Of a stretch of DNA of 64,000 nt, positions 1,741 to 64,000 are shown one piece after another. The notes beneath the pieces were generated by a model. The model was not told the DNA's origin and searched no databases. It was given only the letters and a program-made list of their open reading frames with translations. This stretch comes from Candidatus Kryptobacter tengchongensis (GTDB lineage: Bacteria > Bacteroidota > Ignavibacteria > Kryptoniales > Kryptoniaceae). Location of the stretch: assembly GCA_001485605.1 (NCBI GenBank), contig FAON01000007.1, positions 62,001-126,000 of the forward strand, read 5' to 3'. Both the position numbers and the translations under genes were made by a program. Within the stretch, counting starts at the first letter, position 1. The number at the start of each line of letters is the position of its first letter.

Positions 1741-4700
1741 TTATTTCACATTTTTAAGATTCTCAAAAATCCTCGTTATCTGATCCTCTGGTTTTTCAAG
1801 AACCTCAACCCCATCAATTCCCTCGGTCTCAGGGGTTGAATAAAGCAAAACTATCTTTACATCTGGCTTCAAAATCTTCAACTCCGCAATTGTATCCTTC
1901 AACTTCAATCTCTGTGTTTTTGAGTTAATCAAAATCAAATCAACTTTATCAAGATTTTCACTTAACATCTTAACTGCAATAACTTTATCCTCCGAGCATA
2001 ACACCTCAAACCCCGCACCCCTCATCGCTTCTATCAACTTTTCTCTTAAATCGTTTTTCTCCGAAACAATCATCACAGCGCTCTTTTTATCCACTTTCTT
2101 AACAGATTCAACCGAGACCGCAACTTTCTGCGAAATTTCATCAACCAAAGGGAGGCAAAATTCAACTTTTGTCCCCTCGCCAAGCTTTGAATCAATCCTG
2201 ATGAACCCACCATGTGAGCTCACAATTCCAAACACCGTTGACATCCCAAGCCCAGTTCCAATTTCAGGTTTTTTAGTCGTAAAAAACGGTTCAAAAACCC
2301 TTTCCCTCGTTTTTTCATCCATCCCAATTCCATTATCAACAACAGAAATACATGCATATTTACCCGAGCTTACCTTAAAAATTTCCGCCTCCTCAAGCGA
2401 GATATTCTTTACAGATACCTCAATCGTTATCTTCCCCGGTCCATCAAGCAAACCTTTTTCTTTCTTTTCAATTATGGCATCTTTGGCATTTACACAGATA
2501 TTAAGCAACGCCTGCTGAATTTCCGTCTTTGAACCATAAACTTTAATCCCCTCAGAATCTATCTTAACCTCAATCTCAATAAACTTTGGAAAAACTGACT
2601 TCATAATCTCTGCGCTGTTAAGAACAATTTGCCCAAGATCAACTATTTCAGCATTTGGTATCTCCTTTCGTGCAAAAATTTTCAAACGCTTGATAAGCTC
2701 AGCTCCACGATTTGAGATTGAAATTATATTATCAATGTATTTCACCAAATCTTCTGACTTTAACTCCCTCTTTTTCGCCTTCAAATCAATCATCTGCGCT
2801 GAAGCTATAATTATCTGCAAGATATTGTTAAAATCATGCGCCATCCCCATCGTAAATGTCCCGATTGATTCAACCCTTTGTAAATGCCTGAGCATATCTT
2901 CCTGCATCTTCTCCTTTGTGGCGTCAAAAATAACGGTCTGGACAGCTGGCTTCCCACCATGATTAATTAACTTGGAATAACACACTAAATAAGCAATGCT
3001 TCCATCTCTCTTTATCGCTCTGTAAGAAGTTCGCTCTGGAGCATATTCACCATGCAATAACTTGATCGCCCTTTCAACCCATTTATCCCTATCCTCAGGG
3101 TGAATAAAATCAAATGGAGTAAGTTTCATAAGTTCATCCAATTCATACCCCAAAATTTCACACAACCTTCTATTGACAGATATAAACCCATTCTCATCAT
3201 AAATTGCCAAACCAACAAATGGATTATCGGCAAGTTCCCTGTATTTACGCTCCGAATCAAAAACCACCCTGACCTGTCTGTCAAGTTCCTCCTCCAGATC
3301 AAAGCTATATTTCACAGAGTTGAAATAAATAAATAAAAGGTAACCGAGAATTAAAAGTGACGCAAAGAGCAGGATATAATAAACCTGTAAATGATATCCG
3401 TATCTTTTAAGCAAATTTTCCTCATCAATCAGATTAACAATCGCCCACGCTTCTGTATTATCATCTAAAAGTTCAAATCTTACAAATGAAAATGCAAAGT
3501 TTATTTTCCTCAACCATTTGTGCCTCCCCACAATTACAGTTCCATTTGAAGATGAACTATTTATCTCACCTGCAACTAAAGATTTAACATCCGAGCGGAC
3601 AAGTTTATTTAAAACATCATAAAAGTTTCCCCCTACGAAGTTATAATTACTTGCGAAAAGAACAGAGCCAGAGTTAACGCTGAAAATTAAAAACTCATCC
3701 AATCCCCCACCCGTCATCTTTGTGAAGTGCTCAAGCATTTTTTCAACATCAATCAAACATGAAACCCCACCCCTGAACTTACCTTTTGAATCAAAAACTG
3801 GATACTCAAGCACAACAGCATCATAACCCTGAACGGCTTTGAAAACAGAGCTCACAACTGGTTTCTTTAACATCAAAAACTTTTTATTATGCTCCTGATA
3901 ACTCACATCACGCCCAATTGCCTTCGGGTCAACCGGATAGGTGTATCTCAAAATTCCGTTTTCATCAACCCTGCTCACATTCCTTATGTAGTCTGGGAAT
4001 CTTGGGAAAACCCTTGCATATTTTAAATGAAGCATTGGGATATTAATTTCAATCACATCTTTATCCTCTGAAAGGTCTTTAAGTATTTTAAACGACTCAT
4101 TTAAGGCAAATTCAATATTGTTCCCGACGCTTCGTAAAAGTTTCTCCTTTTCCCGAGCATATCTTTCAACTTCAAACTCAATATATTTCTTTATCAAGAA
4201 CGCTTGCAAAAACAACAAAATACCTATAAATGGAATTGATGTCAAAACGAACTTTTTTATCCTTCTAAGCGAAACAAGTTTTATCCTGCCAGAATAAACC
4301 CTCTCAACTCCAGAGATAATTTGATTCAAATACCTCAAGGTAAAAAGTAATGTGAAGAAAACAACATATAAAGCGATGACAACACTCACTGCAGACATAA
4401 GCATACGAGCGGTAAAAAGCCATGAAGGTAAAACCTCAAAAGCCACAAAAGTAAGATAAATCAAAGGTTCAATCAGAAAATAAAAACTCAAGATTTTCAA
4501 AACATTTGCTTTACTTCTCATCTCTGGCACCATGCCAGCAATCAAGGCAATTGAAGTGAATATTCCCCACAGCGAAACAGAACTAAAACCATAGAAAAGA
4601 GCCCCAACCTTCCAAATTAAGGTTCTTTGAATTTTAAAGTAAATCGGAAGGTAGTAAAAAACGAGGAAAACAAGAGAAAGAAAGACAACCCATTTGATAA

Positions 4701-5025
4701 TTTTGTTTATCTCCTCACTCAAATTTTGAGATATATTTTCTCCAACCTTGTTTATGCCCCACAGAGCAAAAATTAACCCAATCCAGAAGACAATCGTCGC
4801 TATAGATGCTTCGTAATCATAAAGATACTCAAAGAATAAAACTAAAATAAAAACCTGAAAGGAAGCAACGAAGGTCAAAATCAAAGCGAAAAAGAGCTGA
4901 AAAAAACCAGAAGGCACCCTTTTTCTATCCCAGATTTTATAGGCAAGATACACTAATGTCACTGTAGGAAAGAAAGAGAAAACAAAATTTAAAATCTGGC
5001 TAAGCAACCTTAACCCAAAAAACAT
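1741..5025 (-). CDS. Multi-domain membrane sensor histidine kinase
   Basis: A 1094-residue sensor kinase. The first ~240 residues hold about seven hydrophobic segments. A further transmembrane helix (~262-282) leads into a periplasmic Cache-like domain (~285-545), then a membrane helix (~555-577), a PAS domain (~600-720), a HisKA domain with the phosphorylated His in GMAHDFNNILQ, and an ATPase domain with N box (NICVNAKDAI), G1 box (VDNGIGMDEKTRERVFEPFF) and G2 box (GTGLGMSTVFG). The last ~110 residues look like a receiver domain that has lost its phospho-acceptor: the usual Asp in the LILLD strand is Asn (DLILIN), and the acidic pair after strand 1 is missing. No response regulator is adjacent. 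The signal is unknown; the N-terminal membrane bundle plus Cache domain suggests a small molecule. Confidence 0.9.
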   Translation of the reverse strand: MFFGLRLLSQILNFVFSFFPTVTLVYLAYKIWDRKRVPSGFFQLFFALILTFVASFQVFILVLFFEYLYDYEASIATIVFWIGLIFALWGINKVGENISQNLSEEINKIIKWVVFLSLVFLVFYYLPIYFKIQRTLIWKVGALFYGFSSVSLWGIFTSIALIAGMVPEMRSKANVLKILSFYFLIEPLIYLTFVAFEVLPSWLFTARMLMSAVSVVIALYVVFFTLLFTLRYLNQIISGVERVYSGRIKLVSLRRIKKFVLTSIPFIGILLFLQAFLIKKYIEFEVERYAREKEKLLRSVGNNIEFALNESFKILKDLSEDKDVIEINIPMLHLKYARVFPRFPDYIRNVSRVDENGILRYTYPVDPKAIGRDVSYQEHNKKFLMLKKPVVSSVFKAVQGYDAVVLEYPVFDSKGKFRGGVSCLIDVEKMLEHFTKMTGGGLDEFLIFSVNSGSVLFASNYNFVGGNFYDVLNKLVRSDVKSLVAGEINSSSSNGTVIVGRHKWLRKINFAFSFVRFELLDDNTEAWAIVNLIDEENLLKRYGYHLQVYYILLFASLLILGYLLFIYFNSVKYSFDLEEELDRQVRVVFDSERKYRELADNPFVGLAIYDENGFISVNRRLCEILGYELDELMKLTPFDFIHPEDRDKWVERAIKLLHGEYAPERTSYRAIKRDGSIAYLVCYSKLINHGGKPAVQTVIFDATKEKMQEDMLRHLQRVESIGTFTMGMAHDFNNILQIIIASAQMIDLKAKKRELKSEDLVKYIDNIISISNRGAELIKRLKIFARKEIPNAEIVDLGQIVLNSAEIMKSVFPKFIEIEVKIDSEGIKVYGSKTEIQQALLNICVNAKDAIIEKKEKGLLDGPGKITIEVSVKNISLEEAEIFKVSSGKYACISVVDNGIGMDEKTRERVFEPFFTTKKPEIGTGLGMSTVFGIVSSHGGFIRIDSKLGEGTKVEFCLPLVDEISQKVAVSVESVKKVDKKSAVMIVSEKNDLREKLIEAMRGAGFEVLCSEDKVIAVKMLSENLDKVDLILINSKTQRLKLKDTIAELKILKPDVKIVLLYSTPETEGIDGVEVLEKPEDQITRIFENLKNVK

Positions 5026-5106
5026 TTCTTTTAAAATTTCAGTAAATTTTCAAATCAGCTTGGGGAAAATTTTTGTAAAAATAACAAAACAAAAACTGAT
5101 TTGCAA

Positions 5107-6678
5107 TTAATTTGCAAGCTTATCCTGATTTAATTTCGGCTTTATTTCAGAATTTGCAAGCCTGTAAACCACCTTATAACAAAGCCTCGCAACTTTCTCA
5201 ATCTTAGAAAAATTAATTTTGCTTGTTTCATCGCTCACCTTGTGATAATCTTCATGCTCGCCCGAATGGAAGAAAATAACAGGAATACCTTTTCTTGCAA
5301 AATTTGCTTGATCACTTCTTGGAAAATCCTTTTCACCATCATAAGAAAATCTAAAACCAATTGTTTTATTCTCCTCTTCAACTAATTTTTTCATATCTTC
5401 GCTATAGCTCCACCCGATCAAAATTAAACTATCAATTGAGTTTCGCCCGATCATATCAAGATTTACCATTGCGATTGTTTTTTCAATCGGGAAAAGTGGA
5501 TTATCAACATAATATCTTGAACCGAGTAACCCTTTTTCCTCCCCACAGAAAGCGATAAAAAGAATACCTCTCCTCGGTTTATCCTTGCCCAATCCAAAAG
5601 CCTTTGCAACTTCCATCATTCCCACAGTTCCAGATGCGTTATCGTCAGCTCCATTGTAAATGCTATCTTTTTCAGACGAGCCGATCGCAGAAGGCGAAAA
5701 ATAACCTACATGGTCGTAGTGTGCCCCCACAACTATAATTTCATCTTTTAACGCTTTATCGCTTCCCTCAACAAACCCCACAACATTGTTTGCGTAAGTA
5801 TTCTCCTTAATGAAACTAACTTTCATTTTTATCTTTACATTTTCAATTTCAAAAGACCTTGGTTTTAAATTTTCATCAATTGTTCGTTGAATTTCTTTTA
5901 AAACCTGAACATCACCGAAAATTTCTTTAATAAACTTCTCCCCAGCTTCAACCGCAGGTATCAAATCTCTCTGCAAATAAGCAAGTTGAATCGGAAGTGA
6001 AGCCCTTGGAAGGTTTTTAAAAATTTTCGGCCACGCATAACCCCGTGGCTTTAAAACAAAATGATTCAATGGGTCTGGCAAAATTATAACACCAATTGCG
6101 CCATGCTCAAGTGCGTTTTGAACCTTATACCTTGGGAAAGAATACCTTGTCGGACGAATTCCATCAAAAACACCTGCCGAATCCATCTCCTGCGGTTCAT
6201 CCCTTAACACAATTACAATCTTCCCCTTAACATCTATCCCCTCGTAATCGTCATATCCATACTCCTTTGCTGTAATACCATAACCTGCAAAGACAACTTT
6301 TGCTTCAACTTTACCCTCACCAAAATTATACGGGACAAAATCAACCCCAAGCTCAAAATCTATATCCTCCCCATTTCTTGATAAAGTAAGATAGTTTTCA
6401 TCCCCAAGGTCAACCTTTATAAACTCAACTCTTTGAAAATAACTTCCATTAACTGGTTTCAACCCATACTGTTTGAACTTATCAGCGATAAATTCACCTG
6501 CTATATTAAGTTCTGGACTTGGTGTATTTCTTCCCTTTAAAGAGTCAGAAGCCAGAAACGAAATGTTTTCCCGAATGCTTTCTGCTGAAATCCTGTTTAA
6601 ACCAAGGTCAACGGTCTCTCTAACCGACGAACATGCAAAAAGGAAAATAGCGGTTATAAATAAGAAAACTTTCTTCAT
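5107..6678 (-). CDS. M28-family metallopeptidase lipoprotein with PA domain
   Basis: A 523-residue zinc aminopeptidase-like protein. The N-terminus is a lipoprotein signal with Cys16 in LFACSS, so it is probably anchored in the periplasm or outer membrane. A protease-associated (PA) insert covers roughly residues 110-215. The M28 catalytic core follows with its metal and catalytic residues visible: VGAHYDHVG, NGADDNASG, CGEEKGLLGS, NLDMIGR and SGEHEDYH. It should remove N-terminal residues from peptides outside the cytoplasm. It is divergent from the sigma-factor operon at 6825; a promoter candidate lies at 6695-6725. Confidence 0.9.
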   Translation of the reverse strand: MKKVFLFITAIFLFACSSVRETVDLGLNRISAESIRENISFLASDSLKGRNTPSPELNIAGEFIADKFKQYGLKPVNGSYFQRVEFIKVDLGDENYLTLSRNGEDIDFELGVDFVPYNFGEGKVEAKVVFAGYGITAKEYGYDDYEGIDVKGKIVIVLRDEPQEMDSAGVFDGIRPTRYSFPRYKVQNALEHGAIGVIILPDPLNHFVLKPRGYAWPKIFKNLPRASLPIQLAYLQRDLIPAVEAGEKFIKEIFGDVQVLKEIQRTIDENLKPRSFEIENVKIKMKVSFIKENTYANNVVGFVEGSDKALKDEIIVVGAHYDHVGYFSPSAIGSSEKDSIYNGADDNASGTVGMMEVAKAFGLGKDKPRRGILFIAFCGEEKGLLGSRYYVDNPLFPIEKTIAMVNLDMIGRNSIDSLILIGWSYSEDMKKLVEEENKTIGFRFSYDGEKDFPRSDQANFARKGIPVIFFHSGEHEDYHKVSDETSKINFSKIEKVARLCYKVVYRLANSEIKPKLNQDKLAN

Positions 6679-37723: not shown

Positions 37724-38902
37724 TTATTTGTTTTCAGGAAAATCCTTCGGAAATTCACCTGTTAATGCTTTTAAAAATTCAACAAGATCCTGTTTCTCTT
37801 GATCAGTTAAATTAAGCGGTCTCATTTCACCAGAAAGATTTGGATTTTCATTTCCACCTCTATTGTAAAACTCAATCACATCAATAAGCGTTGCCTCGCT
37901 CCCATCGTGCATGTATGGAGCTGTAAGTTCAACATTTCTCAAAGTTGGGGTTTTGAACGCACCGATATCTTTGGGATTAAATGTTACAAGAAATCTCCCG
38001 AGCTCCGAATATGCGGGGTCAAGCGCAAGCTCATCAAGTTTTCTTTTATCAAGTTGACCTTGTTTTGCAAGCAATTCGGCTTTTCTGGCAAGATCAGCAA
38101 AACCTTCTTTATTCATCGCAACGCCAATGTTATGATATTTGTTATCTGTGAAAAATGGATTTGAACGGTTGAATTCATGACATGTAATACATCTTGCTTT
38201 ACCTTGAAACAACTGCCATCCCCTTTTTGCAGACTCACTTATTGCATTTTCGTCACCAGCGATAAACCTATCAAAAGGCGAGTTTCCCGTCAGAAGGGTT
38301 CTCTCAAAAGCAGCTATAGCCTGTGCAACCTTATCAATTGTTATCTCTCCACCAAAAACTTTCTTAAACAACTCAACATACTCGGGAATCCCTTTAAGTT
38401 TTTTAACGACGGCATCGTGATCTGGCATGCCCATTTCAATTGGGTTAATTATCGGTTGTTTCGCCTGCTCTTCCAATGTCGGAGCTCGCCCATCCCAGAA
38501 TTGTTGCTCAAAAAACATAGCATTTAAAACCGTTGGAGCATTTCTTGCTCCCTTCTTTCCACTCACCCCTTCACTTACCTTCTTGTTTTCAGCAAATGCA
38601 AATTTCGGATCATGACAAGTAGCACATGCAACAGTATTATCAATAGAGAGACGCTTGTCAAAGTAAAGCTTTCGCCCAAGTTCAACTTTTTCAGGAGTTA
38701 TAGGATTATCTGGGGGAATGAAAAGTTCCCATAAATCTTTTGGGATCCCAAGCGGAATTTTAACATCATAACTTGCTTTAGCAGATGAATTCACCTTTTC
38801 CCCATTGATGGATATAAAGGAAAGAATAAACACAATGAAAAACAAAACCACATGGTAAAAGATTTTAAAGTTCCGCATGGTTTTTTCTTTTTTATTTTTC
38901 AT
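37724..38902 (-). CDS. Di-haem cytochrome c peroxidase (CcpA/MauG family)
   Basis: A 392-residue periplasmic enzyme with an N-terminal membrane/signal segment and two haem c sites, CATCHDPKFAF and CITCHEFNR. The intervening region (QFWDGRAPTLEEQAKQPI, NPIEMGMP) is diagnostic of bacterial cytochrome c peroxidases, which reduce H2O2 with electrons from small cytochromes. The first ATG (38902) is used; the ATG at 38878 gives an equally good signal peptide. First gene of a three-gene operon. Confidence 0.93.
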   Translation of the reverse strand: MKNKKEKTMRNFKIFYHVVLFFIVFILSFISINGEKVNSSAKASYDVKIPLGIPKDLWELFIPPDNPITPEKVELGRKLYFDKRLSIDNTVACATCHDPKFAFAENKKVSEGVSGKKGARNAPTVLNAMFFEQQFWDGRAPTLEEQAKQPIINPIEMGMPDHDAVVKKLKGIPEYVELFKKVFGGEITIDKVAQAIAAFERTLLTGNSPFDRFIAGDENAISESAKRGWQLFQGKARCITCHEFNRSNPFFTDNKYHNIGVAMNKEGFADLARKAELLAKQGQLDKRKLDELALDPAYSELGRFLVTFNPKDIGAFKTPTLRNVELTAPYMHDGSEATLIDVIEFYNRGGNENPNLSGEMRPLNLTDQEKQDLVEFLKALTGEFPKDFPENK

Positions 38903-57751: not shown

Positions 57752-59647
57752 TTACTTCACAAGAACCATCTTCTTTATCCCAACGAAATCATTAGCCCTT
57801 AAAACATAGAAATACACACCACTTGACAAATCTCTCCCATCAACCCTAACTTCATGATACCCAGCTGGCAATTCACCAACAAACAAATCTTTCACCTTCT
57901 GACCAGCGGAATTGTAAAGCTCCAACCTAACACTTGAAGCAACTGGCAATTCAAATTTTATTGTAGTATACGGATTAAATGGATTAGGATAATTTTGATA
58001 TAGCGCATACTTCTTTGGAACATCTACTACAACCTGTATCACATCAATATCTTTTCTCTCATATCTTGAAACTGCTTCAATCCTGTAATAATACTTACCA
58101 GATTCAACCACTCCCTTATCAACGAATTCATAATCACTGCCGAATGCACCATTACCTTTTGCTCTTAAAGATGCCTCGCTCTGATACGAACCAACAAGAA
58201 TATAATTCTCATCACCCCTGCCACGATAAATGTTGAACCCAAGGAAATCCTCCCTCTCAACCTGCGTCTTTATCCTCAACTTAACAACATTACCCACAAC
58301 CTCAGCTGAAACATTGACAACCTGAACAGGCAAAGGAGCATCCCCAGTCCCCGAAATTACAAAATCTGAAAACGAGCTAACACCTGAAACAGTTATCGTA
58401 TTGTTGTCTACATCTCTTGCTATCACATTTAATTCTATCCATTGCGTTCCATCCCATTTGAAAACACGCAAAGAATTCTCATCAGTTATACCTTGGCGTG
58501 CAAGATCTGCATCAGAGTAAGAGAAAGTAATGTTTGCTTGAAAACTTGAAATACCCGATTGCTGAATTCTAAACCACCTTCTTAAAACTTTATTATTACC
58601 AAGCGGTCCATCGGGTCGTTGAGTAACACTATCAATTACGGAGACAGTTACATCACCTGAACCAACCAAATCTGTAAAGTCAATAGTCACAGGAAGATAA
58701 TCTGAACCCTGACCGGTTTCCCATTTTTTTGAACCAGTTGATGAAACGGGATAAACAAGATTACCTTCTATAAATTTACCAGGACCTGCCCCAGTGATTT
58801 GACTGTTAACTTTAAGTATCTTTTCACCCGTTATGACTTTACCATTCTGAGTAAAAATTAAAGTGTCTACAGTTAAATCTCCATTTAAATTTAGTGAAAT
58901 GTTAGAACCATCTAACTCCAAACCATAAAAATATCCCCCACCAATAGCACCACTTTCAGTAAAAAACCTCGTTCCATTGATATAAATATTATCAACAGCA
59001 AAACTTGGGCGATCACCTTTGCCACTTACTTGGCGAGTAACCCACCGCAGTTGAACAACCGATTTATTATCACAATCAGATGGCAACATTACTATATGGG
59101 TTTCTAATTTTTGCGGATCAGTAGTATTACCAGTTTGAGTTGTTGTGTTATTTTCATAACTCGAATCAGAAGTTGTAGTATATGATCCAGTATCAGAAGC
59201 AGCTCTATATTGCAAAGCCACTTTATTTATCCTTGTATTATTAGTGCCATCATATGGATTACGGATTGTCATAATATCATATCTAATGATTACTCTTCTA
59301 AAGCCGAAAGTATTAATAGCTAAAACAAGAGCTGGATTAAATTGACCGGTTGGTAAAAAACCAAGTTTACCATTATAATTCCAAATTCTCCCAGCGGTTT
59401 TATTAGCATCCCCACTTGGATTTAATGATGAATCTGCTATAGGTGCTGAAACCTTAAACGCTGTTGATGTTTCTCCACTAGGATTACCCCCTAATGTCCA
59501 GCCATTCCAACCATCTGGATATGTAGAGGAATTCCATGGTAAAGAGCTAAAATCTTGAGAATAAGGCAAGCTTTGGGCAGATGGAACAGTTTGACTATAT
59601 AGATACCAGTTAACAAAAACTATCAAAAATAAAATAACATTCCTCAT
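57752..59647 (-). CDS. Secreted protein with T9SS type A sorting domain
   Basis: A 631-residue secreted protein. A signal peptide (MRNVILFLIVFVNWYLYSQ) is followed by strand-rich domains and a fibronectin-like segment, then the C-terminal sorting domain: YALYQNYPNPFNPYTTIKF, then LELYNSAGQKVKDLF, DLSSGVYFYVL and the end IKKMVLVK. This domain directs passage through the type IX secretion system and attachment to the surface or release. GGAGGTAGGC fixes the ATG at 59647. The enzymatic or adhesive role is unknown. Confidence 0.9.
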   Translation of the reverse strand: MRNVILFLIVFVNWYLYSQTVPSAQSLPYSQDFSSLPWNSSTYPDGWNGWTLGGNPSGETSTAFKVSAPIADSSLNPSGDANKTAGRIWNYNGKLGFLPTGQFNPALVLAINTFGFRRVIIRYDIMTIRNPYDGTNNTRINKVALQYRAASDTGSYTTTSDSSYENNTTTQTGNTTDPQKLETHIVMLPSDCDNKSVVQLRWVTRQVSGKGDRPSFAVDNIYINGTRFFTESGAIGGGYFYGLELDGSNISLNLNGDLTVDTLIFTQNGKVITGEKILKVNSQITGAGPGKFIEGNLVYPVSSTGSKKWETGQGSDYLPVTIDFTDLVGSGDVTVSVIDSVTQRPDGPLGNNKVLRRWFRIQQSGISSFQANITFSYSDADLARQGITDENSLRVFKWDGTQWIELNVIARDVDNNTITVSGVSSFSDFVISGTGDAPLPVQVVNVSAEVVGNVVKLRIKTQVEREDFLGFNIYRGRGDENYILVGSYQSEASLRAKGNGAFGSDYEFVDKGVVESGKYYYRIEAVSRYERKDIDVIQVVVDVPKKYALYQNYPNPFNPYTTIKFELPVASSVRLELYNSAGQKVKDLFVGELPAGYHEVRVDGRDLSSGVYFYVLRANDFVGIKKMVLVK

Positions 59648-59782
59648 GCCTACCTCCATAATTATTTTGTTTTCATTTTCCAGATTTTTCTCTACTTACC
59701 CTCCGACCCCAGCTCTACAAAATTTTCACCAAAACTTAACAACTTACCATGCCAAGCAAATCTTCATCTTTATCTTTCACCC

Positions 59783-61003: not shown

Positions 61004-61450
61004 ATGTCAAGAAAGCAATATTCACTTCGTAGAACTTACATTGGTCGCCTCCCGCAAGGAGCTGACCTGCTTGAGGGTATAACCAAGATCTGCAAAGAAG
61101 AAAACATAAAGATCGGAAAAATAACGGCGATAGGTGCAGTTAAAAAAGCTGTGATTTCTTTTTATGACCAAATTGAAAAGAAATATCATAACATTGAATT
61201 AAATCAGGAAATGGAGATAGTAAGTTGCATTGGAAATATAAGCTTGTTAAACGGTCAACCCTTTGTTCATTGTCATATTGTGCTTGCAGACAATCAAGGT
61301 AGATGTTTCGGTGGACACTTGATGCTCGGCACTGAAGTTTTTGCTTGTGAGTTGATAATTGAAGAATTTGAAGGCGAACCCATTGAAAGAGTATACGATG
61401 AAGCGAGCGGACTAAACCTATGGCATCCAGCTTTGATTTTGATGGAGTAG
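61004..61450 (+). CDS. PPC/DUF296 domain protein
   Basis: A 148-residue protein made of one PPC (DUF296) domain, the fold found in plant AT-hook proteins and in bacterial proteins proposed to bind DNA. GADLLEGITKICKEENIK, HCHIVLADNQGRCFGGHL and VFACELIIEEFEG are typical, including the metal-binding His pair in the HCH segment. Function unknown. It lies 15 bases after ruvB and is followed by the repeat array. Confidence 0.88.
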   Translation: MSRKQYSLRRTYIGRLPQGADLLEGITKICKEENIKIGKITAIGAVKKAVISFYDQIEKKYHNIELNQEMEIVSCIGNISLLNGQPFVHCHIVLADNQGRCFGGHLMLGTEVFACELIIEEFEGEPIERVYDEASGLNLWHPALILME

Positions 61451-61466
61451 AATTCCCCCTTCTATT

Positions 61467-61713
61467 CCCCCTCTCTACGAAAGTAGAGAGGGGGTCAGGG
61501 GGTGAGTTAAACCCACCCCCTTCATCTTCCCCCTCCCTACGAATGTAGAGAGGGGGTCAAGGGGTGAGTAAAATCAAACTCACCCCTTTATCTTCCCCCT
61601 CTTTACGAAAGTAGAGAGGGGGTTAGGGGGTGAGTAAAATCAAACTCACCCCTTCATCTTCCCCCTCTCTACGAAAGTAGAGAGGGGGTTAGGGGGTGAG
61701 TAAAATTAAACCC
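61467..61713. repeat. Double-hairpin repeat array, left part (4 units)
   Basis: Units start at 61467, 61529, 61595 and 61661 (62-66 bp apart). Each holds hairpin A, arms CCCCCTCTCTAC and GTAGAGAGGGGG around GAAA, then hairpin B, arms GGGGGTGAGT and ACTCACCCC around a short A-rich loop, then a TTCATCTT linker. The fourth unit has only the left arm of hairpin B before the DUF559 gene. Small arm changes often keep pairing by wobble. Confidence 0.93.
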
Positions 61714-62091
61714 ATAATCTCAAAAATGAACAAAAAGCAAATAATTGAAATAGCAAGACAGTTAAGAAAACAGCAAACACCTGCAGAAAAGAAACTTTGG
61801 GATGTTTTGCGAAACAGAAAATTTTTAGGATTGAAATTTTTGCGTCAGCACCCAATAATATATGGCGATGGCAATAAACTTCGCTTTTTTATAGCAGATT
61901 TCTACTGTGCAGAGAAAAAAATTATCATAGAAATTGACGGCAAAGTGCACAATTACCAAAAAGATAGAGATCAAATAAGAGATAGCATCACTAACAGCTT
62001 GGGACTGAAGATTTTAAGAATAAAAAATGAGGAATTAACAAGGCTTGAACTGGTTTTAGAAAAGATAGAAAACTTCGTAAAATCTAACTGA
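61696..62091 (+). CDS. DUF559 (Vsr-fold) endonuclease inside the repeat array
   Basis: A 131-residue DUF559 protein, related to very-short-patch-repair endonucleases. AEKKLWDVLRNRKFLGLKFLRQ, FFIADFYCAEKKIIIEIDG and KVHNYQKDRD hold the expected catalytic acidic residues and His, and the end LKILRIKNEEL is typical. The GTG start (61696) is inside the left arm of repeat hairpin B, where GGGGG acts as a ribosome-binding site; the ATG at 61726 is an alternative. The TGA touches the right arm at 62091. So the gene exactly occupies a repeat loop. It probably nicks or cuts DNA; a role in moving or maintaining the repeats is inference. Confidence 0.88.
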   Translation: MSKIKPIISKMNKKQIIEIARQLRKQQTPAEKKLWDVLRNRKFLGLKFLRQHPIIYGDGNKLRFFIADFYCAEKKIIIEIDGKVHNYQKDRDQIRDSITNSLGLKILRIKNEELTRLELVLEKIENFVKSN

Positions 62092-62352
62092 AACTCACCC
62101 TCTTTTATCTCCCCTCTCTACGAAGTAGAGAGGGGTCAGGGGGTGAGTAAAATCAAACTCACCCCTTCATCTTCCCCCTCTTTACGAAGTAGAGAGGGGG
62201 TCAGGGGGTGAGTAAAGTTAAACTCACCCCTTTCACCTTCCCCCTCTCTACAAATGTAGAGAGGGGGTTAGGGGGTGAGTAAGAACACAGCAAAACTCGC
62301 CCTCTTATTCCCCCTCTCTACAAATGTAGAGAGGGGGTTAGGGGGTGAGTAA
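62091..62352. repeat. Double-hairpin repeat array, right part (4 units)
   Basis: It begins with the right arm of hairpin B that matches the left arm at 61691-61706 across the DUF559 gene, then units starting at 62111, 62174, 62240 and 62310. The A hairpins are slightly shorter (25 nt) in the first and carry AAAT instead of GAAA loops in the last two. The last unit stops after its left B arm, 25 bases before the aldehyde dehydrogenase gene. Confidence 0.93.
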
Positions 62353-62376
62353 ACCAAAACAAAATTCCTCAAAACT

Positions 62377-64000
62377 ATGTCCCTTGAAATTACATACAAA
62401 GACTTGCTTTCAATCCAGCAAGCGCGAGAACTCATAGCAAAAGCAAAAGAAGCTTTCCTTGAATACAAAAATTATTCACAAGAACAAGTTGACAAAATAG
62501 TTCGTGCAATGTTTGAAGCTGGATACGAAGCCTCAGAACGACTTGCAAAACTTGCTGTTGAAGAAACGGGAATTGGAAAATGGGAGGATAAAAAATTAAA
62601 AAATGAATTCGCCACAAAATTTACATACGAATCAATCAAAAATTTAAAAACCGTCGGTGTTATAAATTACGACAAATCAAAGCGAGTTGTTGAAATTGCT
62701 GAGCCAATGGGTGTAATATCTGCACTTATTCCAACGACAAATCCAACTTCAACCGCGATGTTTAAAGCTTTAATTTGTGCAAAGACGAGAAACGCGCTTG
62801 TCGTAAGCCCACATCCAAGAGCTGTAAAATCCACCTACGAAGCAATCCAAATAATGCAAACAGCAGCTGAAAAAGCTGGGGCACCGAGAAACTTATTCCA
62901 ATGTATGACAGAAGTTACAATTGAAGGAACAATGGAGCTCCTAAAACATCGGGATGTATCTTTAATCCTTGCAACCGGTAGCACTCAAATGGTCAAAATG
63001 GTCTATAGCATTGGGAAACCAGCATATGGAGTTGGGTCTGGAAATGTCCCCGCTTTCATTGAAAGGACCGCGAATATAAAAAAAGCAGTTGCAGATATAA
63101 TCTTTGGCAAAACATTTGACTATGGAACACTTTGTTCTGCTGAAAATGCCGTTGTTTGCGATTCACCGATAAGAGAACAGGTGATTTACGAATTCAAAAA
63201 ACGAGGTGCTCACTTTTGCAATCCAGATGAGAAAGAAAAACTTGAGAAAATAATTCTCACCCCCCAAGGCGGAATAAATCCAGAAATTGTCGGAAAACCA
63301 GCAGCCTACATCGCACAAAAAGCAGGTTTTTCCGTCCCCGAACAAACAACCGTGTTAATAGCTGAACTTGAAGGTGTGGGAAAACAATATCCGCTCTCCG
63401 TTGAAAAACTCTCACCAATCCTCGCCTTCTATACAGTTGACGGATGGAGAGAAGGCTGTCATAAATGTATTGAACTACTTGAATTCGGAGGGCTTGGACA
63501 CACAATGGTCATACACTCAAGCGACCCCGACATAATTACGAAATTTGCCCTTGAAAAACCCGCTTTCAGAGTCCTCGTGAATACAGTTGCTGCACTTGGA
63601 GCTGTCGGCTATACAACAGGTCTTGACCCATCAATGACACTTGGACCGGGAACACTTGGACATTCAATTATTTCGGAAAATGTCACTGCAAGACATCTAA
63701 TCCAAATAAAACGATTAGCCTATGAGCTACTCCCTCTGCACGATATTGAAGGCAACAGAATCCAAATCTCCGATGCAAAAAGATTTCATACATCTACCAC
63801 CGAAACAAAAGATATAAAAAGCATACTTGAAGAAATTGAAGAAAGAATACGATTAAAAGCTGGGAACCCACCTGTTTCAACTGGGACGAAATTAGAATCA
63901 ACCACTGATGAAAGAAAAACCAAAATCTATGGCTCTGGTATAACCGAGGAAGAAATTGAAAAAATAATCAGGGACTTTCAATCAAAATATCCCGGCAGGT
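62377..64000 (+). CDS. CoA-acylating aldehyde dehydrogenase (partial at window end)
   Basis: The first 541 codons of an acylating aldehyde dehydrogenase, of the PduP/EutE or AdhE N-terminal type, which converts aldehydes to acyl-CoA with NAD. Visible features: PMGVISALIPTTNPTSTAMFK, the NAD-binding ATGSTQMVKMVYS, the catalytic Cys253 in YGTLCSAENAVV, and the tail LGPGTLGHSIISENVTARHL. Residues ~480-541 form an extra tail with ITEEEIEKIIRDFQSKYPG, an amphipathic helix of the kind that targets enzymes to bacterial microcompartments. The stop lies beyond the window. No clear ribosome-binding site is seen; the repeat array ends just upstream. Confidence 0.88.
   Translation, partial: MSLEITYKDLLSIQQARELIAKAKEAFLEYKNYSQEQVDKIVRAMFEAGYEASERLAKLAVEETGIGKWEDKKLKNEFATKFTYESIKNLKTVGVINYDKSKRVVEIAEPMGVISALIPTTNPTSTAMFKALICAKTRNALVVSPHPRAVKSTYEAIQIMQTAAEKAGAPRNLFQCMTEVTIEGTMELLKHRDVSLILATGSTQMVKMVYSIGKPAYGVGSGNVPAFIERTANIKKAVADIIFGKTFDYGTLCSAENAVVCDSPIREQVIYEFKKRGAHFCNPDEKEKLEKIILTPQGGINPEIVGKPAAYIAQKAGFSVPEQTTVLIAELEGVGKQYPLSVEKLSPILAFYTVDGWREGCHKCIELLEFGGLGHTMVIHSSDPDIITKFALEKPAFRVLVNTVAALGAVGYTTGLDPSMTLGPGTLGHSIISENVTARHLIQIKRLAYELLPLHDIEGNRIQISDAKRFHTSTTETKDIKSILEEIEERIRLKAGNPPVSTGTKLESTTDERKTKIYGSGITEEEIEKIIRDFQSKYPGR

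Follow-up and report, generated by a model that had tools for sequence, protein, structure and literature searches.

A Vsr-like DUF559 nuclease gene bracketed by BoxC-type hairpin repeats: a probable mobile element in Candidatus Kryptobacter tengchongensis

A single small nuclease gene of Candidatus Kryptobacter tengchongensis lies between two arrays of palindromic repeats, and the question raised by this locus is whether gene and repeats form one element and what spreads the repeats. The window, i.e., the whole stretch of DNA that was analysed, comprises 64,000 nucleotides of contig FAON01000007.1 from a genome of 2.68 Mb, and Candidatus Kryptonium thompsonii and Candidatus Chrysopegis kryptomonas are close relatives. 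DUF559/YcjD is a very widespread nuclease family of 'unknown function', and PD-(D/E)XK nucleases can cleave DNA but have no joining activity. A first-pass annotation of the window, made from the sequence alone, had interpreted the locus as a REP-like element with a DUF559 nuclease of its own, the gene filling the loop of one unit in an array of eight. The features of the locus, in window coordinates, were as follows.

Stop codon at 61450: left neighbour, a DUF296-like gene (name read from the sequence, without a profile search).
61451 to 62376, no strand: whole insert relative to the relatives, ~926 bp (comparison with five congeners).
61467 to 61701, plus strand: left array of four head-to-tail triplex-type hairpin units (repeat search, pattern, fold and third-strand scoring).
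61467-61494, 61529-61556, 61595-61622 and 61661-61688, plus strand: inner hairpins of the left array (repeat search and pattern).
61645 to 61700, plus strand: unit 4, which adjoins the gene start (sequence; fold −22.9 kcal/mol, z −7.2; third strand 8/8); its parts are the outer arm CTCACCCC, a C/T arm, the loop GAAA, a G/A arm, the spacer TTA (3 nt) and the purine third strand GGGGGTGAG.
61726 to 62091, plus strand: gene for a DUF559 (PF04480) Vsr/EDxHD-type PD-(D/E)XK nuclease of 121 aa (PF04480, E 5e-29).
62094 to 62350, plus strand: right array of four units, oriented as in the left array (repeat search, pattern, fold and third-strand scoring).
62111-62135, 62174-62200, 62240-62267 and 62310-62337, plus strand: inner hairpins of the right array (repeat search and pattern).
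ATG at 62377: right neighbour, an aldehyde-dehydrogenase-like gene (name read from the sequence, without a profile search).

The eight units described on first pass (61467-62350), four per side of one intact gene, were recovered in a repeat search and again by pattern matching. The exact pattern CCCCTCTCT-N1..12-AGAGAGGGG gave five matches in the window, all within the array, and none in 100 shuffles; GGGGTGAGT gave 13 matches versus 0.18 expected. A copy of GGGGTGAGT at 38561 was considered as a further unit and rejected as a chance match without a hairpin. Units are spaced at 62 to 70 nt inside each array, and every unit points in the same direction, the array being head-to-tail throughout and not a simple inverted pair. 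The gene, the only DUF559 copy in the window genome, extends from an ATG at 61726 to a TGA at 62091, between GGGGGTGAG (61692-61700) and CTCACCC (from 62094). On first pass it had been described as starting in one arm and stopping at the other. The right arm begins 2 nt after the TGA, and the left arm ends 25 nt before the ATG; the start would lie inside the left arm only if the upstream in-frame GTG (61696) were used. A search of Rfam returned no match. PADLOC matches were weak, and a defence-system reading was not adopted; a search of viral contigs detected one weak relative only and hence no sign of a phage element. Elsewhere in the window (57752-59659, minus strand), a gene adjoining ruvB encodes a protein with a C-terminal sorting domain of the YPNPFNP type, typical of type IX secretion.

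Folding resolved each unit as a single nested hairpin, in which outer CTCACCCC/GGGGTGAG pairing surrounds inner CCCCCTCTCTAC/GTAGAGAGGGGG pairing. The repeated structure seen on first pass was therefore retained but the second of its two hairpins was not: as the outer arms pair within one unit, 'hairpin B' is an alternative pairing across adjacent units, and the gene, rather than occupying the loop of one unit, sits between units 4 and 5, with no obligatory loop around it. Of five stretches folded, four (from three units, one of which was folded on both strands) had z scores of about −6 to −7.6, and a mismatch-bearing unit folded at z −2.3. Within a unit, a C/T-rich arm is joined by a loop to a G/A-rich arm, and 3 nt further on lies a purine 'third strand', GGGGGTGAG, each base of which mirrors one of the G/A arm, T standing opposite A. 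Seven window units were scored, each with a third strand of 8/8 and a spacer of 3 nt (4 nt in one unit); the eighth, unit 2, has one stem mismatch and carries GGGGTGAG. Beyond the window, and with duplicates removed, third strands of at least 7/8 were found in 201 of 264 hairpins versus 23 at a control offset, and the spacer preceding the third strand was mostly 3 nt. The units are best read as matching the layout of BoxC, PIT or intrastrand-triplex repeats (TMs), the triplex itself being predicted. Gene-less arrays of many decaying units were also seen between genes at two other places in the window genome (L062 on C4 and L063 on C7), with loops and spacers unlike those adjoining DUF559.

BoxC/PIT/triplex repeats, reported in the 1990s, have been described in >260 genomes and associated with more variable loci and genome instability (PMC4666352). 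The first-pass annotation, which knew of no description of such an analogue of RAYT/REPIN, missed that the repeats are a variant of known BoxC/PIT/triplex motifs. The likeness extends to the C/T arm, short loop and G/A arm, to a 3-nt second loop that is often TTA, to a purine third strand whose T occupies the corresponding position (GGGTGAG), and to a dispersed, multi-copy and mostly intergenic distribution with paired inverted copies. The window stem, CCCCCTCTCTAC/GTAGAGAGGGGG, however, differs from the exact E. coli consensus, CCCTCNCCC-N3-6-GGGNGAGGG-N3-GGGNGAGGG (PMC4666352); the window has long tandem arrays, and DUF559 is linked to the repeats here whereas that study detected no linked mobility gene. 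With a different stem and the same layout, the window repeat therefore belongs to a related sequence family that is distinct from BoxC of E. coli.

The Vsr-like nuclease fold assigned to the gene product on first pass was borne out by structure comparison. An AF2 model (pLDDT 90) matched 3hrl (Z 15.3), the catalytic domain of the homing endonuclease I-Bth0305I (3r3p; Z 13.0) and Vsr (Z 9.9), and the protein matched 3r3p at E 1e-7 in a profile search. The PD-(D/E)XK Vsr-like fold and the acidic and His residues of the Vsr/EDxHD superfamily are present; among 52 sequences, E69, D71 and H75 were invariant and D58 nearly so. The product is a predicted PD-(D/E)XK nuclease, with DNA cleavage predicted from the fold. 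I-Bth0305I resembles it in this fold and in sequence but carries the name of a mobile intron protein, while DUF559 genes stand alone or are fused in frame, with hairpin repeats on both sides. The window gene is of the free-standing kind, containing DUF559 only, with no intein splicing blocks around the nuclease. At one other locus (L054; G018:C70:50200-59500, ORF 3083-6550, minus strand), DUF559 supplies the endonuclease domain of an intein that interrupts a DNA N6/N4 methylase; the C-terminal intein motif (TIGR01443) scored above the cut-off and the N-terminal motif below it, and the C-terminal motif was seen only at this locus. By analogy, homing use of a related domain is evidence for, though no proof of, a homing-like role of DUF559 at the window locus.

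The intergenic space orthologous to the insert was compared in the five congeners in which the neighbouring gene is present (G001 and G003-G006). It measured ~926 bp in the window genome versus roughly 15 to 36 bp in the congeners, which therefore provided the clean empty sites sought by the first-pass annotation. G001 has no insert at this locus and carries its single DUF559 gene on another contig, and the window genome has only the window copy. Exact hairpins numbered 62 in the window genome, beside one DUF559 gene, so the repeat is not found only in the array. Within the genus, counts of 62, 24 and 10 were obtained for the three genomes with an intact DUF559 gene and 0 for the four without. 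In G006, one of these four, the DUF559 gene is broken into two short open frames (L061, C5:3854-4160), and zero window-type hairpins were detected in this genome. The comparison indicates that gene and repeats move together and that the block is mobile. A clear target-site duplication was not seen at the window junctions or in UvrC and MetH, the relatives being too diverged for an exact call, and neither integrase nor transposase chemistry was detected in the element.

DUF559 was present in 37 of 61 related genomes. Around 78 DUF559 loci, hairpins with a stem of at least 9 occurred at 0.47 per 100 bp beside the gene versus ~0.02 at a distance of 0.7 to 1.2 kb, and their polarity was highly skewed (106 C/T-first versus 2 G/A-first). 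Uma2, a multi-copy PD-(D/E)XK family that served as a control in the same genome set, had hairpins at 2 of 25 loci, none of them C/T-first. A wider set was made up of 80 relatives of the window protein, chiefly from Bacteroidota and neighbours, Spirochaetota, Cloacimonadota and others making up the rest; hairpins were detected at 61 of the 70 DUF559 loci with full flanks, and polarity was again C/T-first (146 versus 1). Picking by similarity was avoided in an evenly drawn sample of 40 loci from 198 genomes of one phylum, with control genes situated 15 to 30 kb away on the same contigs. Hairpins accompanied 33/40 DUF559 loci versus 0/53 control genes (p 1e-18), and these values were 24/40 and 0/53 when the triplex form was required. 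Inspection by eye of single loci revealed the same hairpin neighbours in cyanobacteria, Deinococcus, Azospirillum, Sphingomonas, Photobacterium and Shinella and at ycjD of E. coli. The association anticipated on first pass is general: in many phyla, most DUF559 genes are accompanied by hairpins of this kind.

Hairpin arms became more alike with increasing DUF559 identity, the mean 5-mer cosine rising from 0.32 at <40% identity to 0.49 at 50 to 60% and 0.84 at >70%. A Mantel test of hairpin against nuclease sequence, with duplicates removed and same-genome pairs excluded, gave an r of 0.33, which was reached by 0 of 2,000 permutations (best, 0.13). These results are strong, though not clean, evidence that hairpin and nuclease have diverged in step, because exclusion of same-genome pairs was the sole control for host relatedness. 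Different DUF559 genes in one genome can have different hairpins (e.g., in G013 and G011). The window hairpin type was found in 6 of the 198 phylum genomes, all of which have DUF559 (base rate, 85/198), and the only two copies in G066 lie ~160 bp from its only DUF559 gene. Co-presence of at least two CCCTCTCC hairpins and DUF559 across the 61 genomes (Fisher p, 0.07; Spearman, 0.48) was only suggestive, since one hairpin type was tested and phylogeny was ignored. Two or more related hairpins were present in 7 of 24 genomes without DUF559, and some E. coli genomes lacking ycjD appear to keep BoxC copies; TM repeats can therefore be present, or survive, in genomes that lack the gene. The array is not unique, DUF559 genes elsewhere are linked to such repeats and the junctions are not random, the reverse of three outcomes that the first-pass annotation had held against its own proposal. 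The repeat copies, the DUF559 linkage and the empty sites lend support to the idea that a dedicated nuclease serves a REP-like element.

Many DUF559 domains were located within open frames of 600 to 1,480 aa. Pfam and NCBIfam identified the hosts as LeuRS (two sites), RecG, MetH, UvrC, HsdR and a UvrD/RecB-like helicase, and HsdM and other methylases were recognized by eye. UvrC has 879 aa in G052 versus 662 or 663 aa in two congeners, and MetH has 1,387 aa in G054 versus 1,235 to 1,242 aa in relatives; the hairpins within in-frame elements are translated. In compact in-frame elements the left TM was in the minus orientation in 17 cases versus plus in 3, and the right TM was plus in 14 versus minus in 4. 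Both TMs of an in-frame element thus mostly point outwards and would constitute terminal inverted repeats whose third strands lie at the outer ends. In LeuRS, in-frame DUF559 with flanking hairpins was observed at two sites, in three genomes each (L290-L292 and L294-L296), and this sharing could be due to homing to fixed sites or to inheritance. The UvrC element of G052 (L047) contains two further palindromes, CCTGCCTGCGCCGGTGCTCCGGCAGGCAGG and TCAACGAATCCACGGATTCGTTGA, nested within the TM flanks, which suggests that TM repeats can themselves receive insertions of other families of palindromes.

In E. coli K-12, ycjD adjoins a BoxC copy. With three mismatches allowed, 28 matches to the motif core were detected in the E. 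coli record, and ycjD was present in 3,362 of 5,426 E. coli genomes. The number of TM copies reported for MG1655 is 23 (Holder et al. 2015, PMC4666352). The interval from sapF to fabI was compared with a reference (L285), and five genomes were examined among the places with 37% query coverage (L280-L284); in these, a TetR-RND efflux operon upstream of fabI replaces ycjD and the BoxC copy.

The reading that we prefer, with a probability of roughly 0.7, is that of a mobile element with BoxC-type TM ends and a Vsr-like DUF559 nuclease as its single gene, which would also spread gene-less copies. We infer that the nuclease acts on, or cuts, the hairpin. It would recognize its own TM, probably as a fold that arises in single-stranded or supercoiled DNA; a nick or cut would be made at the TM, and host repair or replication would then copy the TM, or TM-gene-TM, into the broken site (compare homing endonucleases and RAYT/REP). 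Single TMs may be non-autonomous copies or remnants, and the tandem arrays of the window could have arisen from repeated insertion or unequal exchange. Several observations weigh against this reading: a target-site duplication and a chemistry for joining DNA were not detected, related hairpins occur in some genomes that have no DUF559, the units of the window array are head-to-tail, and the covariation of TM and nuclease is only partly controlled for host phylogeny.

The relationship could also be the reverse, with TMs spreading by replication slippage or another transposase and DUF559 homing genes inserting at them, so that the gene would depend on the repeats but not vice versa. The occurrence of TMs without DUF559 in some genomes, their excess of 62 to 1 over the gene in the window genome, the homing endonuclease fold and the single DUF559 intein endonuclease are all in keeping with such a landing pad. 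We consider it unlikely, as repeats are missing within the genus wherever the intact gene is missing, in-frame elements bring TMs into genes that are TM-free in relatives, and the inverted outermost third strands mark the ends of a moved block. A nuclease that resolves hairpin or triplex DNA as a matter of repair, kept near the repeats for regulation and involving no mobility, would agree with the Vsr-like fold, which is a repair fold, and with the mismatch repair role proposed for a DUF559 protein of Caulobacter (PMC12907096). A repair enzyme would have no need to carry repeats along, however, and the empty sites, the non-orthologous positions and the in-frame insertions in LeuRS, MetH, RecG and UvrC are marks of mobility; we regard this alternative as very improbable.

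The same low standing is given to movement of the TMs in trans by a RAYT or other HUH/DDE transposase with DUF559 as a passenger. RAYTs do move hairpin repeats of similar size (PMC3733652), but it is DUF559 that is found between the repeats at dozens of loci, the window units have no GTAG tag, and transposase or integrase remnants were never found around the E. coli TM motifs (Holder et al., PMC4666352). Finally, G/C-rich hairpins near gene ends might be ordinary transcription terminators or attenuators around a small gene. Terminators would hardly be expected on both sides of the gene, in tandem, with a fixed C/T-first polarity and a third strand, or inside open frames; such hairpins were present at 0/53 control genes, and in earlier work the BoxC/PIT motif had no terminator activity (reviewed in PMC4666352). 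This last explanation is, in our judgment, close to untenable.

A mobile element made up of DUF559 and its TMs would be of a known kind in its working, a nuclease with dispersed palindromes, and its parts are unrelated to that kind. REP/REPIN-RAYT systems (REPtrons) are alike in that small palindromic repeats flank a nuclease gene and many copies are gene-less (here, 62 hairpins and one DUF559 gene). They are unlike in that RAYT is a Y1/HUH transposase and the window enzyme is a Vsr-like PD-(D/E)XK protein, and in that REPs carry a GTAG tag whereas the window tag is the GGTGAG third strand; neither part is homologous. GTAG is absent from the foot of the window hairpin, where the unit ends are CTCACCCC and GGGGTGAG, and occurs only inside the stem. 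Rickettsia palindromic elements are palindromic repeats found in frame in protein genes; their sequence differs from that of the window units, and we know of no associated nuclease gene. In yeast mitochondria, mobile G/C-rich palindromes (GC clusters) occur near free-standing homing endonuclease genes, but these are organellar, have LAGLIDADG enzymes and lack the triplex layout. No sign of a published link between DUF559 and such repeats was seen in the titles and abstracts of the open-access literature retrieved for DUF559, COG2852 and ycjD; the label of novelty is a cautious one, and absence from that literature is no proof of novelty.

BoxC-type hairpin repeats have long lacked a partner that could spread them, and the DUF559 gene appears to fill this role: gene and repeats of this kind are found together in many bacterial phyla, even in the interior of essential genes. 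A broader proposal, to which we give even odds, is that DUF559 and BoxC-type hairpins constitute a bacteria-wide class of mobile elements apart from insertion sequences, RAYT/REP and homing genes, in which a Vsr-like nuclease would recognize the folded end, spread itself and gene-less repeats and lodge in frame within essential enzymes without splicing, with E. coli ycjD as the cognate enzyme of BoxC. The presence of an in-frame nuclease domain in LeuRS, MetH, RecG and UvrC without splicing motifs is surprising in itself, and the palindrome-encoded insertions in proteins would be explained if gene and repeats are linked. Both the BoxC/PIT/triplex repeats and DUF559/YcjD would then gain a function, and the question could be put to the test in E. 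coli K-12, where ycjD lies beside a BoxC copy.
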